Positions 56,314 through 63,417 of a stretch of 64,000 nt of DNA are shown piece after piece (the first letter of the stretch is position 1; each line of letters starts with the position of its first letter). The notes beneath the pieces are model-generated. The model searched no databases, was not told the origin of the DNA, and saw only the letters and a program-made list of their open reading frames with translations. The position numbers and the translations under genes were made by a program. The stretch is taken from positions 1 to 64,000 of the forward strand of contig JAAYRH010000029.1 in assembly GCA_012518835.1 (NCBI GenBank), read 5' to 3'. The stretch is from Aeromonadales bacterium (lineage in GTDB: Bacteria; Pseudomonadota; Gammaproteobacteria; Enterobacterales; Aeromonadaceae).

Positions 56314-57417
56314 TTAAAGAGTCTGCATTTCATAAGCGAGCTCAGACAAAGCATTAGTTACTCGCAAACTGGACTGCTCCATTCGATTTAAGCAGTCCAG
56401 TCCCGCTTGTTGTTTCCCTTCACTAAAAGCGCGTAGCGCTTGAGCGCCCTCTTCGTGTAAGGCTTTATGACTGGCTTCAATCACTTTAAAAGCGTTTAAA
56501 TGACTATAGAGCTGGGCCCCTCGCCCTTGGTAATACCATTCACCTAGACGACAGGTATTATAAGTGGTGACGGGATCAACAAATGACTTGCTTTCAATGC
56601 GCTGGTAAATATTATTTTTCCACAAGGCATGATCAAGCTTAACTCCCTCCAAAAAAGCCGTAGAGGCATTATGTCTAATCACGTTACGCATACTGTCTGC
56701 ATGACGCATCACTTCTTTTGTTACCTCGTCAATTTGTTGGGACGCCGCCGCGATTTCCTCTGTGCTTTCTAAAGATTGCACCACAATGCTATTAATCGCT
56801 TTGCTTTGCTCTAGGACTTGCTGCACCAAACCATTAATATTGCTGCTCGCTTCGTGTGCTTTACTCGCTAAATTACGTACTTCATCGGCTACTACAGCAA
56901 AGCCTCGTCCTTGCTCACCTGCCCGCGCCGCTTCAATGGCCGCATTTAACGCTAATAGGTTCGTTTGCTCCGATATTTCTTGGATCACTGACACAAAGTT
57001 ACTAATTTGACCCGCGGTGTCGGTGAGAATTTCTGAACTTTTAGCACTATTACTGACTTCAGTATTAATTAATGCAGAACGCCGCTTTAAGTTATCAGTC
57101 GCTTGGTAGGTATGGGCAAATACTTCTTCCATGGCGACTAGCTTTTCTTGCTCTTCTAGCAAAGTTTCTGCATTAGACACCATACTTTCACGAATACTAC
57201 TTAGCATTTCTGAGCCTTGTAACAACACGCCCATGGTTTGCTCACATAGCTGCTGTGCGGCAGTTTGTGCTTTAACTTCCACGGTTAATGCTATTATTTC
57301 GTCTTGTTGGGCTGAGAGCTTCTTTTCATAATCAGCAACGGTGGCGGCTAATTGTTGCTCGAATACTTGTAACTGTTTTTTTGCTTTATTACCAAACATC
57401 ATATTCCCTATTAGCAA
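56314..57417 (-). CDS. Soluble methyl-accepting chemotaxis protein with C-terminal CZB domain
   Basis: Signalling hairpin [38 protein letters not shown]; no TM helix; C-terminal [12 protein letters not shown] ... [17 protein letters not shown] ... HKALHEEG. Confidence 0.9.
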
Positions 57418-58192: not shown

Positions 58193-59683
58193 ATGCGGCA
58201 TACATTGTTTTTGGCGACAAGCTTTGCTTTTTTAGGCAGCCTAGCTAGTACTAGCTTAAGCGCGGCTGAAACAGATGCAAAGCTTATCGAGCAAGGAGAG
58301 TATATTGCACGGGCGGCCGATTGCATGGCTTGTCATGTGGGAGCAGATGGCACTCCTTGGGCAGGAGGAAAGCCTACGGTAACGCCGATGGGGGAAATAA
58401 TAGCGCCTAATATTTCGTCTTCTACTAAATATGGGATTGGTAAATATTCAGTCGCCGATCTCACCAAAGTACTTCGTAAGGGTAAAACCCCTTCTGGCAC
58501 TCACCTTTATCCAGCTATGCCCTACCCTGATTATCAAGGCATGACTGATGATGATATAAAAGCGCTGCACGCTTACTTACAAAGCTTACCCGCGGTAGAA
58601 AAAAAGCCAGACACCAAAACCAATCTGGCTTTTCCCTTTAATATGCGGTTTTTAATGGGCTTTTGGGATAGCCAAAATCTAGGTAAATACCAAGCGCCGA
58701 CCGGGCTTAATGAGCAGCAGGCCCGTGGACAATATATTGTGGACCATCTCGGACACTGTGGCACTTGTCATACTCCTCGTAATAGCCTGATGGGCAGTGA
58801 TTATGAGCACTATTTGGGCGGTGCCCAAGTGGGTAGCTGGTTTGCGCCTAATATTACTAGCGATGAACAGGCGGGTATTGGAAGTTGGAGTGAGCAACAG
58901 CTAGCAGATTACTTTAAAAATGGCCAAATGGGCTACGCTGCTCAAGCCGCAGGTCCAATGGGTGAAGCGGTCCACTACAGTTTGCAATACCTTAGCCAAG
59001 AAGATCGTTTAGCGATGGCAGCATATTTAAAAACCGTACCCGCGATTACCAACGAGGAACAAAAGCAACCCATTTTAAGCACCAGCATTGATGAAGAAGT
59101 GATAGCCCTTGCTCCGGTGGTCTCACCCTCTACTCACTATCCTGAAGATCAGCTCAAAGAACACGGATTAAAGACTAGCGACATTAAAGACCCAGACTCT
59201 CCCGCCGGGCTCTATGAGCTGCATTGTGCCTCTTGCCATAGCAAGGATGGCTATGGGCAGCCAGTCTCTTCTTACGCCAGCCTCAAAGGGAATACCACCT
59301 TACGCAGCACTAATCCAAGAAACTTAGTGGCAGTAATATTAGAAGGGGTGTCTTTTCAAGGCGCTTCGCCTCGCCCGTTAATGCCAGGCTTTAGTGACCG
59401 GCTCGATAACGAACAAATAGCGGCACTGGCCAACTATTTGCGCACTGAGTTTGGCGAGCATGCCGACAGCGATATTGATGCCGAGCAAGTGGCTTATATT
59501 GCCTCTGGAGAGCAAAAAACCTCGGCATTAATCCGCTACGCCCCTTTATTGGCTTGGCTAGGCATTATCGTCGTTATCGTGGCTATTGTCGCGGCGGTAT
59601 GGTTCTGGAGACGTCGTCGTCACCAACCTAGCGTCACGCCTCGTAACGATATTAACTCTACTGATAAAAGGATCGACTCATGA
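58193..59683 (+). CDS. Tri-heme, C-terminally membrane-anchored cytochrome c (alcohol-dehydrogenase cytochrome-subunit-like)
   Basis: Signal peptide; CMACH, CGTCH, CASCH heme motifs; C-terminal TM YAPLLAWLGIIVVIVAIVAAVWFWRRRR. Confidence 0.9.
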   Translation: MRHTLFLATSFAFLGSLASTSLSAAETDAKLIEQGEYIARAADCMACHVGADGTPWAGGKPTVTPMGEIIAPNISSSTKYGIGKYSVADLTKVLRKGKTPSGTHLYPAMPYPDYQGMTDDDIKALHAYLQSLPAVEKKPDTKTNLAFPFNMRFLMGFWDSQNLGKYQAPTGLNEQQARGQYIVDHLGHCGTCHTPRNSLMGSDYEHYLGGAQVGSWFAPNITSDEQAGIGSWSEQQLADYFKNGQMGYAAQAAGPMGEAVHYSLQYLSQEDRLAMAAYLKTVPAITNEEQKQPILSTSIDEEVIALAPVVSPSTHYPEDQLKEHGLKTSDIKDPDSPAGLYELHCASCHSKDGYGQPVSSYASLKGNTTLRSTNPRNLVAVILEGVSFQGASPRPLMPGFSDRLDNEQIAALANYLRTEFGEHADSDIDAEQVAYIASGEQKTSALIRYAPLLAWLGIIVVIVAIVAAVWFWRRRRHQPSVTPRNDINSTDKRIDS

Positions 59684-61293
59684 AGAAAAGTCCCTTAACT
59701 CGGCGCTACCTGCTTACTATGATTGGCAAGACCGCTGGCGCCGGTGCACTTTACTCCGCCATGACGTCGTGGGGTCTAGCTCGGCCCTCGACCTTTACCG
59801 ATGAGCTCGATTTATCTGCCGCCCCCAATGGCAGCAGTGTCCTAGTATTAGGGGCTGGCTTAGGCGGCATGACCGCCGCCTATGAGCTACGTAAAGCGGG
59901 GTATGAAGTCAGTATTTTAGAATATAGCGAACGCCCTGGTGGTCGCTGCTATACCATTCATAGCGGCGACACTTTTACCGACTTATCCGGTGAAACCCAG
60001 CATTGTACCTTTGCACCAGGTAACTACATTAATCCCGGCCCTTGGCGTATTCCTTACCACCATTATGGCGTACTGCACTATTGTAAAAAATTTGGCGTTA
60101 AACTAGAGCCGTTTATTCAGTTAAACTACAACGCCTATGTGCACTCACCCCATGCCTTTGATGGTAAGCCACAACGGGTAAGAGAGGTATTAACCGATGT
60201 GCACGGCTACACTGCTGAGCTACTCGCTAAGGCCACAGATCAAAATGCCCTTGATGAATACTTAACGCCTGAAGACTGTGAGGCCTTATTAGAGCAATTA
60301 GATGACTGGGGTCGCTTAACTGGCGATCATAAATACCAAAAAAGTATAAAAGCCAGTGAGTTTCGTGGCTTTAAAGACTGGCCAGCCGGTGGCTTAATGC
60401 CTAAACCCTCGCCCAGTGAACCTTTAGACTTTAAAGAGCTATTACACTCGGGCTTATGGGGTTTGTTGTTAGATTATTTTAATACCGAATATCAACACGC
60501 CATGTTTGAGCCCCACGGCGGTATGGAGCAAATTGCCCGCGGCTTTGCCAATCAAGTAGGCGATATTATTGACTATCGCTGCCAAGTCACGCGCATTGAA
60601 CAGTCTGACGATAAGGTCACGGTGCATTATATTGACCCTGACAAGCCAGATGAGGTTAAAACCCGTAGCGCCGATTGGTGTGTATGTAACATTCCGTTGT
60701 CGGTGCTTAGCCAAATTCAAGTGGATGCTTCGCCGGCCATGTTGCAAGCCATTGCTGCTATTCCTTATGGCAGCTCCACTAAAACCGGACTGGAGTTTAA
60801 ACGCCGCTTTTGGGAACAAGATGAAAGCATCTTTGGCGGCGTCACCTATACCGATATGCCCATTAAAGTGATCTCTTACCCCGCCTATGATTACTTTAGC
60901 GATGGGCCGGCGGTGCTATTAGGCGCTTACACCATAGAAGATGCCGGCAGTTATACCATGTCGGCGATGACCGGACGCGAACGGGTAGCGGCAGCAGTGG
61001 CTTATGGCAAGCAAATACACCCTCAGTATGAAAAGGAATTTATTTCAGGGGTATCTTGGTCATGGCATCGCTGCCCTTGGACACTGGGTTGTTATGGCCT
61101 GTGGACCGACGAGCTTAGAGAGGCTCACTATGACACCTTGTGCTCTATCGACCATCGCTTAGTACTAACCGGTGAGCATTGCTCTTATATTCCCGCTTGG
61201 ATGGAAGGGGCTATTCTGTCTGGGATGGATGCCACTAAGCGCTTGCACGAAAAAGCCACCGCCATGAAACGCGAACGAGGTGATCATGAATAA
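59680..61293 (+). CDS. Tat-exported FAD-dependent amine oxidase/dehydrogenase family protein
   Basis: LTRRYLLTMIG twin-Arg leader; VLVLGAGLGGMTAAYELRKAGYEVSILEYSERPGGRCYTI; C-terminal GEHCSYIPAWMEGAILSGMDATKRL. Confidence 0.9.
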   Translation: MKKSPLTRRYLLTMIGKTAGAGALYSAMTSWGLARPSTFTDELDLSAAPNGSSVLVLGAGLGGMTAAYELRKAGYEVSILEYSERPGGRCYTIHSGDTFTDLSGETQHCTFAPGNYINPGPWRIPYHHYGVLHYCKKFGVKLEPFIQLNYNAYVHSPHAFDGKPQRVREVLTDVHGYTAELLAKATDQNALDEYLTPEDCEALLEQLDDWGRLTGDHKYQKSIKASEFRGFKDWPAGGLMPKPSPSEPLDFKELLHSGLWGLLLDYFNTEYQHAMFEPHGGMEQIARGFANQVGDIIDYRCQVTRIEQSDDKVTVHYIDPDKPDEVKTRSADWCVCNIPLSVLSQIQVDASPAMLQAIAAIPYGSSTKTGLEFKRRFWEQDESIFGGVTYTDMPIKVISYPAYDYFSDGPAVLLGAYTIEDAGSYTMSAMTGRERVAAAVAYGKQIHPQYEKEFISGVSWSWHRCPWTLGCYGLWTDELREAHYDTLCSIDHRLVLTGEHCSYIPAWMEGAILSGMDATKRLHEKATAMKRERGDHE

Positions 61294-62113
61294 AACAACT
61301 TTTACCTTGCTACTATTAAGCGCTATTGGCTTAAATGCCAATGCCTTTGCCCAACAGCAAACAAGTGATACCAGTACTCAAGAGTCGCCGACTTCGCTAG
61401 CTAAACCAGAAGACGATAAGCAACAAGACAAGCAAGCTACTGCTAACAAAAAGGACTCAAATAAGGCAGAAGATACTAAGCAACAAGACAAGCAAGCTGC
61501 TGCTAAAAAAGAAGACTCAGATAAAACAGAAGACGCTCAGCCACAAGATAAGCAGTCTTCTGCTAAAAAGGAGGACTCAGGTAAAGCAGAAGATACTAAG
61601 CCACAAAGCAAAGCTAACAAGGAGGATAATAAACCTACGCCGAATTTAGTAAAAGAGGCCGCGCAACGTCATACCCCGCCCTGGACCAACGACAGCGCGA
61701 ACATTAACTTACAACAGCCGCGTCTTGCTCTCGATGAAGAGGTGGCTAAACCCTACACGGCAGAAGACTTTACTGTTAAGCCAGAATGGGAAAGACTGTT
61801 TGCCAGTGACGAGCACTTTTCAACTAATAGTGGCGCCGAGCTTTATGAAACCATGTGCCAAGCTTGCCACATGGCAGACGGACAAGGCGCCAAAGGCGTA
61901 GGTTACTTTCCTTCTTTTGTGGGTAACGAGCGACTACGCTCACCAGATTACCCGATCGATGTCGTATTAAACGGTCTGCGTGGAATGCCACACTTTAGCC
62001 ATATGCTCACCGATGAGCAGATCGCTGGGGTAGTGAATCACCTGCGCACCAGCTTTGGCAACCAACTTGACGGTGATACTAACGCCGAGGATGTAGCCCG
62101 GGTTCGCAAGTAA
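61286..62113 (+). CDS. Mono-heme cytochrome c with N-terminal Lys/Gln/Asp-rich repeat linker
   Basis: Signal peptide, charged repeats, then NSGAELYETMCQACHMADGQGAKGVGYFPSFVGN and LRGMPHFSHMLTDEQIAGVVNHLRTSFGN. Confidence 0.88.
   Translation: MNKTTFTLLLLSAIGLNANAFAQQQTSDTSTQESPTSLAKPEDDKQQDKQATANKKDSNKAEDTKQQDKQAAAKKEDSDKTEDAQPQDKQSSAKKEDSGKAEDTKPQSKANKEDNKPTPNLVKEAAQRHTPPWTNDSANINLQQPRLALDEEVAKPYTAEDFTVKPEWERLFASDEHFSTNSGAELYETMCQACHMADGQGAKGVGYFPSFVGNERLRSPDYPIDVVLNGLRGMPHFSHMLTDEQIAGVVNHLRTSFGNQLDGDTNAEDVARVRK
61408..61625 (+). repeat. In-frame tandem repeat, 60-bp period, about 3.5 diverged copies
   Basis: …GATAAGCAACAAGACAAGCAAGCTAC… recurs exactly every 60 nt; protein DKQQDKQATANKKDSNKAEDT / KQQDKQAAAKKEDSDKTEDA / QPQDKQSSAKKEDSGKAEDT. 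Confidence 0.9.
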
Positions 62114-62133: not shown

Positions 62134-62168
62134 AAAAAAGCCGCCAGCTATCCTGCCGGCGGCTTTTT
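62134..62168. terminator. Rho-independent terminator after cytochrome operon
   Basis: AAAAAAGCCGCC-AGCTATCCTGCC-GGCGGCTTTTT. Confidence 0.82.
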
Positions 62169-62276: not shown

Positions 62277-63417
62277 CTACACCTTAAACTGCGTGACCAG
62301 TTGGCGTAATTGCTCAGCCCGCGCCTGTAATCCTTTAATAGCATCCAGTTGTTGCTCGGCATTGTGATGGATGCTGGCAGCGCTGTCTGATATTAAATGG
62401 GCTGACTCATTAATGTGTTCTGCCACCGCGCCCTGCTCTTCAGTAGCTGCGGCCACTTGGTGATTACCTGAGCTAATCGTTTCAAACTTTTGTTTAATAT
62501 TCATTAGCGCTAAGGCAGACTGCTCAGTACTGGCTGCGACTTGCTGGCTACTTGCGGTGCCCTGCTGAATGGCGATGGTAGATTGCTCTGCCGTTTGCTG
62601 TAGCTGAGCAATTTGGTCACGAATTTCTAAGGTCGAGGTTTGAGTGCGCTGGGCTAAATTACGCACTTCATCGGCGACCACGGCAAAGCCACGTCCTTGC
62701 TCACCGGCGCGCGCAGCTTCAATCGCCGCATTTAATGCTAATAAGTTGGTTTGCTCAGAAATATCATTAATAACCTCCACTACCGAGTTAATAGCACCCG
62801 CCTGCTCTGCAAAGTGGTTAATGGTATTTTCAATATCCATCATCACCCCATTTAACTCTTGCATGGTGTGTGAGGTCATCGCCATATTGTCATTAGTGCG
62901 GTGGGTGTCGGCAACGGCAGACTCGGTATCTTGCGCGGTGCGATGAGCAATACCCGACACCTCAGTGATGGTTTGCCCCATTTCGGTAATGGCCGTGGCG
63001 ACCTGATCTGTTTGTCCGCGCTGAATATCCGTAGATGCAAATGTATCGTTCGCCAACTGCGCCAGCTGTTCGATGCCGGTTTGCATCGCCATTTCTGTAT
63101 GTTGGATCTCTGCGACTAACTCTTGAATCGTGCCAATAATGGCATTAAAGCCCTTTGCTAAATGGCCTAATTCATTATCATGACGATCATCGAGGCGGGT
63201 CGTTAAATCACCGCCATTGCCTGACATAGTTAATAAGTCATCACCCACTCGACGAATCGCTTTGCTTAGCGCGTTAGCAAATACCACGGTGAAACCAATA
63301 AACACTAACGTGAGTAACAAGCTGACCCACACAGAAGATGAAATGACTGCGTTTATCGCACCGCTAATACGACCTCGCGCTCTGTATGATGCGCCTTGTT
63401 GGGTATCGGCCCGCTAG
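62277..63417 (-). pseudogene. 5'-truncated methyl-accepting chemotaxis protein (TM2-HAMP-signalling domain only)
   Basis: Reading frame before the called start continues [34 protein letters not shown]… to an in-frame TAG at about 63415; HAMP and [38 protein letters not shown] intact; no ligand-binding domain or TM1. Confidence 0.7.

Follow-up and report, generated by a model that had tools for sequence, protein, structure and literature searches.

The stretch analysed here, 64,000 nucleotides of an Aeromonadales bacterium contig (hereafter, the window), carries three overlapping genes on the forward strand for two cytochromes c and a flavoprotein. The first (58193–59683) encodes a 496-aa tri-haem cytochrome c of the fructose/glucose/alcohol dehydrogenase (FDH/GDH/ADH) cytochrome-subunit family with a Sec-type leader and a C-terminal transmembrane (TM) anchor, the second (59680–61293) a 537-aa flavin adenine dinucleotide (FAD) enzyme of the L-amino-acid oxidase (LAAO) type with a twin-arginine translocation (Tat) leader, and the third (61286–62113 from its ATG, with a possible alternative in-frame GTG start at 61280) a 275-aa mono-haem cytochrome c that has a Sec-type leader and, ahead of its haem domain, a long linker of low complexity. 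Genes 1 and 2 overlap by 4 nt (ATGA) and genes 2 and 3 by 8 nt. After the gene 3 stop, at about 62140–62168 of the same strand, lies an intrinsic terminator hairpin with a GC-rich stem and a T tail (GCCGCC...GGCGGC-TTTTT; folding energy of the region -24.7 kcal/mol, z -6.8). This hairpin was missing from the output of a simple terminator scan, and a sigma-70 promoter scan gave matches no more frequent than by chance. The initial annotation had proposed these three genes, their overlapping stop and start codons, the type of each protein and the strong terminator, and all of this was confirmed. The order tri-haem, FAD, mono-haem was found in 47 loci, the window counted among them, and as this order and the short spacing recur in distant genomes, the three genes are a genuine, well-conserved respiratory operon.

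The FAD enzyme and the two cytochromes

The FAD protein begins with MKKSPLTRRYLLTMIG, in which a Tat-type leader (TRRYLLTMIG) was recognized by eye, and the RR of this leader is invariant across the alignment of FAD relatives (A1). The protein matches Amino_oxidase PF01593 (E 1.6e-55, 190 bits). Its top PDB sequence match was the Rhodococcus opacus LAAO (2jae, 286 bits), followed by vertebrate-type LAAOs (131 bits), and a profile built from 15 relatives scored the R. opacus enzyme at 505 bits. The latter was also the closest fold to the AlphaFold model of the protein (pLDDT 88.6; Foldseek TM 0.84/0.94, rmsd 2.1), with ranks 1–12 all occupied by LAAOs. The enzyme is thus on the LAAO branch, and these rankings rule out as closest kin NicA2, the example named in the initial annotation, of which no entry was among the 60 best PDB chains for the profile. 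Two other families were rejected. NCBIfam matches of the desaturase/phytoene or HpnE type mostly covered the FAD-binding N-terminus and fell far under their cut-offs; a Proteus-type L-amino acid deaminase (LAAD) needs the DAO family PF01266, for which the match (22.7 bits) was below the cut-off of 27.9.

Active-site residues were compared in an alignment of 76 relatives. R123, aligned with the Arg that holds the substrate carboxylate in LAAOs, is present in all 75 rows having a residue there, position 417 is Tyr in 70 rows, as in the window protein, and Phe in five, and K368, aligned with the Lys near flavin N5, is found in 76 of 76; W462 is likewise conserved among the aligned relatives. The roles of R123, Y417 and K368 are assigned by analogy with known LAAO structures. 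Selection on the FAD gene is purifying (pN 0.09 vs pS 0.70). Since the carboxylate-binding Arg and Tyr are kept, an L-alpha-amino acid appears a likelier substrate than a plain amine, which narrows the earlier proposal of "an unknown amine or amino acid" to its second part, and our best guess is an aromatic or large hydrophobic L-amino acid.

The tri-haem protein has CxxCH motifs at 44, 189 and 345 and a single TM-like stretch near its C-terminus (452–470). Its PDB matches (7w2j_C, 313 bits; 8hdd_B, 307 bits) reflect full-length homology, and it is a member of the FDH/GDH/ADH cytochrome-subunit family. The candidate Met haem ligands M109, M256 and M397 are invariant among 11 relatives, and the gene is under purifying selection (pN 0.21 vs pS 0.77). 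Paralogues elsewhere in the same genomes adjoin a GMC oxidoreductase, molybdenum-type enzymes or a TsdA-like di-haem protein, these partners being identified by eye. The paralogues beside the TsdA-like protein (L173, L174, L175, L177 and L179) form a supported clade, and this neighbourhood suggests another use of the module.

The mono-haem protein matches PF13442 (E 1.7e-13), has its one CxxCH at 191, and resembles haem domain 3 in the cytochrome subunit of FDH. Within its N-terminal extension, a tandem repeat of 60 bp (3.4 copies, 61402–61606, forward strand) runs in frame and encodes a charged, K/D/A/Q-rich linker. With start sites picked by script, the length from Met to CxxCH has a median of 121 residues in the clade with the tri-haem gene vs 44–49 elsewhere. 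In one close relative (L076), 311 residues precede the motif, longer still than in the window, and the linker therefore varies fast. In many Psychrobacter the protein carries a lipobox (LSGCS) and would be lipid-anchored.

Conservation and origin of the tri-haem form

Relatives' loci were drawn from GTDB genomes, from kin and from samples spread evenly over the class and the phylum; a species may enter by two routes. Where the FAD protein scored at least 330 bits, the mono-haem gene lay directly downstream of the FAD gene in 88 of 88 proteobacterial loci, 19 of which (19/19) came from the even samples. CxxCH occurred in only 5 of 397 flanking genes of the same loci, so an adjoining haem gene beside every proteobacterial FAD homologue at this threshold is not due to chance, and the co-conservation expected from the initial annotation holds. 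Only three FAD loci were without an adjoining mono-haem gene (one Paenibacillus and two Bacteroidota, one of which runs into a contig end). In more distant FAD clades the mono-haem cytochrome is replaced by a di-haem one, or RidA stands alone; in one such clade (L081, L141, L142) the di-haem cytochrome is accompanied by RidA, parallel to clade 1 of PMC12224317.

The tri-haem gene is more restricted. It was absent beside the FAD gene in 41 loci, and its copies next to an LAAO-type gene come from Halomonas, Marinobacter, Cobetia, Psychrobacter, the window's genus and one more member of the class (G547). Loci with the tri-haem gene form one clade in the FAD tree (22/22 rows, SH-aLRT 95, one change), and this clade is nested within loci of the FAD-cytochrome(-RidA) kind. 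Copies linked to an LAAO-type gene likewise form one clade in the tri-haem tree (support 99), divided into the same main groups. This pattern fits a single recruitment of the tri-haem gene followed by joint inheritance with the FAD gene, and the tri-haem gene is apparently a later addition of single origin. The FAD-mono-haem pair is the wider and older arrangement, and contact between the two proteins is ancestral, because the FAD loci of 41 relatives do without a neighbouring tri-haem gene.

Among 23 genomes of the window's genus, two have the tri-haem form and four have FAD-cytochrome-RidA. This patchiness, together with the relatedness of the FAD gene to its Halomonas, Marinobacter and Cobetia counterparts, suggests horizontal transfer; composition gave no island signature (operon GC 48.7% vs 47.5% for the window). 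Copy number also varies in Psychrobacter, where one genome (L008) has a second tri-haem/FAD/mono-haem set immediately upstream, a tandem operon duplication, and Psychrobacter sp. GP33 has two copies at separate sites (L034, L040).

Of the 41 loci that lack the tri-haem gene, 22 have a RidA-family gene (PF01042) downstream, and the inspected RidA copies start with a signal peptide. The window's genome encodes an exported RidA (165 aa) on another contig, unlinked to the operon, with 71–78% identity to those of four of the five nearest tri-haem relatives having one; in Halomonas halodenitrificans (L006), ridA adjoins the operon. RidA is known to cluster with FAD amine oxidases and to hydrolyse LAAO imines (PMC4433059).

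Counterparts in known systems

The initial annotation called the cluster undescribed, which does not hold for its FAD-cytochrome core: this is already known, if little studied, matching both lao-cccA-ridA (PMC5053998) and the amine dehydrogenases that use cytochrome c, a class published in 2025 (PMC12224317). In Gluconacetobacter diazotrophicus PAL5, insertions in lao of lao-cccA-ridA (GDI2456-2454) abolish Trp-dependent production of indole-3-acetic acid (IAA), and cytochrome c maturation (ccm) mutants retain 5% of IAA (PMC5053998). The window shares with that cluster a Tat LAAO-type FAD protein with an adjacent cytochrome c, but the ridA of its genome is unlinked, on another contig. No tri-haem gene is described for lao-cccA-ridA, and lao is presented there as an oxidase in which the cytochrome may have a part (PMC5053998).

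Other flavoprotein amine oxidoreductases (FAO) that combine a Tat leader with a neighbouring cytochrome c behave in vitro mostly as dehydrogenases (PMC12224317). The window enzyme resembles these FAO:cytochrome c dehydrogenases (NicA2, Pnao and clades 1–3) in its Tat leader and in the adjacent cytochrome c gene of its operon, and two one-electron transfers are expected for it as for them. Those enzymes were gathered from NicA2 matches and have mono-haem or di-haem c4 partners, with no mention of a tri-haem partner; nor does that text name LAAO, Psychrobacter or Halomonas (PMC12224317).

The tri-haem protein is like the subunits of FDH, GDH, ADH and aldehyde dehydrogenase (7w2j, 8hdd, 8gy2, 8gy3) in its three CxxCH domains, full-length homology and C-terminal anchor. 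Those subunits serve a GMC, pyrroloquinoline quinone (PQQ) or molybdenum partner, whereas the partner in the window is a PF01593 flavoprotein plus a separate mono-haem protein. R. opacus LAAO (2jae/2jb1), closest in fold and sequence and in the Arg/Tyr/Lys/Trp of the active site, is an O2-using oxidase and is not known to belong to an operon of this kind with cytochromes. The Chlamydomonas periplasmic LAO1, with LAO2/RidA, is a similar combination of exported LAAO and RidA that scavenges extracellular amino acids, but it is an oxidase producing H2O2 and no cytochrome is reported (PMC10805672). A search of the open-access literature turned up no account of the three-gene form that includes the tri-haem subunit, which does not prove its absence, and the tri-haem partner looks like a new part of the system.

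Proposed electron path and its alternatives

The operon probably encodes a periplasmic L-amino-acid dehydrogenase whose electrons pass via the mono-haem and tri-haem cytochromes to the respiratory chain. The Tat-exported FAD enzyme would oxidise an L-alpha-amino acid to the 2-imino acid in the periplasm, and hydrolysis of the latter, assisted by the exported RidA encoded elsewhere in the genome, would give the 2-keto acid and ammonia. FADH2 would be reoxidised by the operon's mono-haem cytochrome in two one-electron steps, and electrons would then pass to the membrane-anchored tri-haem cytochrome. From there they would most likely enter the quinone pool, as in fructose and alcohol dehydrogenase, or else go directly to a cytochrome oxidase; the window's genome encodes COX1-family proteins and cytochrome c1. 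The order FAD, mono-haem, tri-haem is favoured because the FAD-mono-haem pair is older and the tri-haem protein a later gain. The initial annotation had drawn electrons from the small cytochrome to the anchored tri-haem protein, and its mechanism holds for the most part. Co-conservation upholds its tie between an exported FAD enzyme and cytochromes, and we infer the substrate, the use of a cytochrome instead of O2, the order of transfer and the final acceptor.

Several points weigh against the proposed dehydrogenase. The nearest solved relatives of the FAD enzyme are oxidases, nothing found on the substrate concerns the tri-haem clade in particular, and the exported RidA had no close homologue in the Psychrobacter genomes checked. 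The link to GDI2456 is drawn indirectly, from equal gene content, the Tat leader and two Acetobacteraceae loci (L062/L063, 40% identity). The presence of K368, the O2-activation lysine near N5, could be listed here too, but we rate it as neutral because most known FAO dehydrogenases keep the lysine (PMC12224317). The O2 reactivity of FAO enzymes is not readable from sequence (PMC12224317), and our literature search found no assay of O2 versus cytochrome for this lineage.

The strongest alternative, which we nonetheless regard as rather unlikely, leaves out quinone: electrons would run from FAD through the tri-haem to the mono-haem protein, or through the mono-haem to the tri-haem protein, and end on cytochrome c oxidase, with the long-linked mono-haem protein providing reach. 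The short, apparently soluble mono-haem protein of two-gene relatives must reach some other acceptor alone, which speaks for such a route, as do the COX1-family proteins of this genome. The 41 relatives that lack a neighbouring tri-haem gene, and hence the ancestral FAD-mono-haem contact, argue against it. So does the tri-haem family itself, as the tri-haem cytochromes of FDH and ADH reduce ubiquinone. A specific form of the preferred path, tentative and less likely than not, is a membrane L-amino acid:quinone oxidoreductase, in which an LAAO-type flavoenzyme with its mono-haem carrier was joined once in Gammaproteobacteria to an FDH/ADH-type quinone-reducing tri-haem protein, and the mono-haem protein was remodelled as an arm for electrons, tethered or on a long linker; in Psychrobacter, this complex would be the enzyme of phenylalanine deamination.

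It is improbable that the enzyme is instead a periplasmic L-amino acid oxidase which uses O2 and gives off H2O2, with the cytochromes as peroxide defence or incidental. Its closest solved relatives, the retained lysine near flavin N5 and the more distant clades with RidA and no neighbouring cytochrome, which may be oxidases, are compatible with this, but a cytochrome gene adjoins the FAD gene in every proteobacterial locus at or above 330 bits, the tri-haem family otherwise partners dehydrogenases, and G. diazotrophicus ccm mutants mostly lose the pathway. Equally doubtful is a substrate outside the L-alpha-amino acids, such as an amine, with the LAAO likeness being mere ancestry. For this one could cite a Tyr in the window protein where R. 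opacus LAAO has Trp (chain position 425) and the lineage-specific W122 next to R123, but against it stand the conserved carboxylate Arg and Tyr, a RidA partner suited to imino acids and the G. diazotrophicus phenotype linked to Trp.

On both sides, the operon is flanked by reverse-strand chemoreceptor genes (56314–57417 and 62277–63332), a CZB-domain and a HAMP-domain methyl-accepting chemotaxis protein. Upstream, a gene of the sodium:dicarboxylate symporter family (PF00375, 53725–54954) possibly encodes an amino acid or dicarboxylate importer.

Psychrobacter phenylpyruvicus was named for its phenylalanine deamination trait. Its genome (L071) has the operon, and none of its full-length PF01266 proteins is a Proteus-type LAAD, making the operon a candidate source of the trait; our literature searches on a Psychrobacter phenylalanine deaminase, or on an L-amino acid dehydrogenase with cytochrome c, returned nothing usable. 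The operon is a testable candidate for phenylalanine deamination in Psychrobacter and for the formation of keto acids and auxin precursors. It extends the 2025 idea of cytochrome c dehydrogenases to the LAAO branch, and presents the tri-haem cytochrome of dehydrogenases as a module that plugs into GMC, PQQ, molybdenum and now LAAO-type enzymes. More broadly, our findings suggest that in Proteobacteria many of the proteins now labelled L-amino acid oxidase or flavin monoamine oxidase are respiratory dehydrogenases, which save the electrons and make no H2O2.

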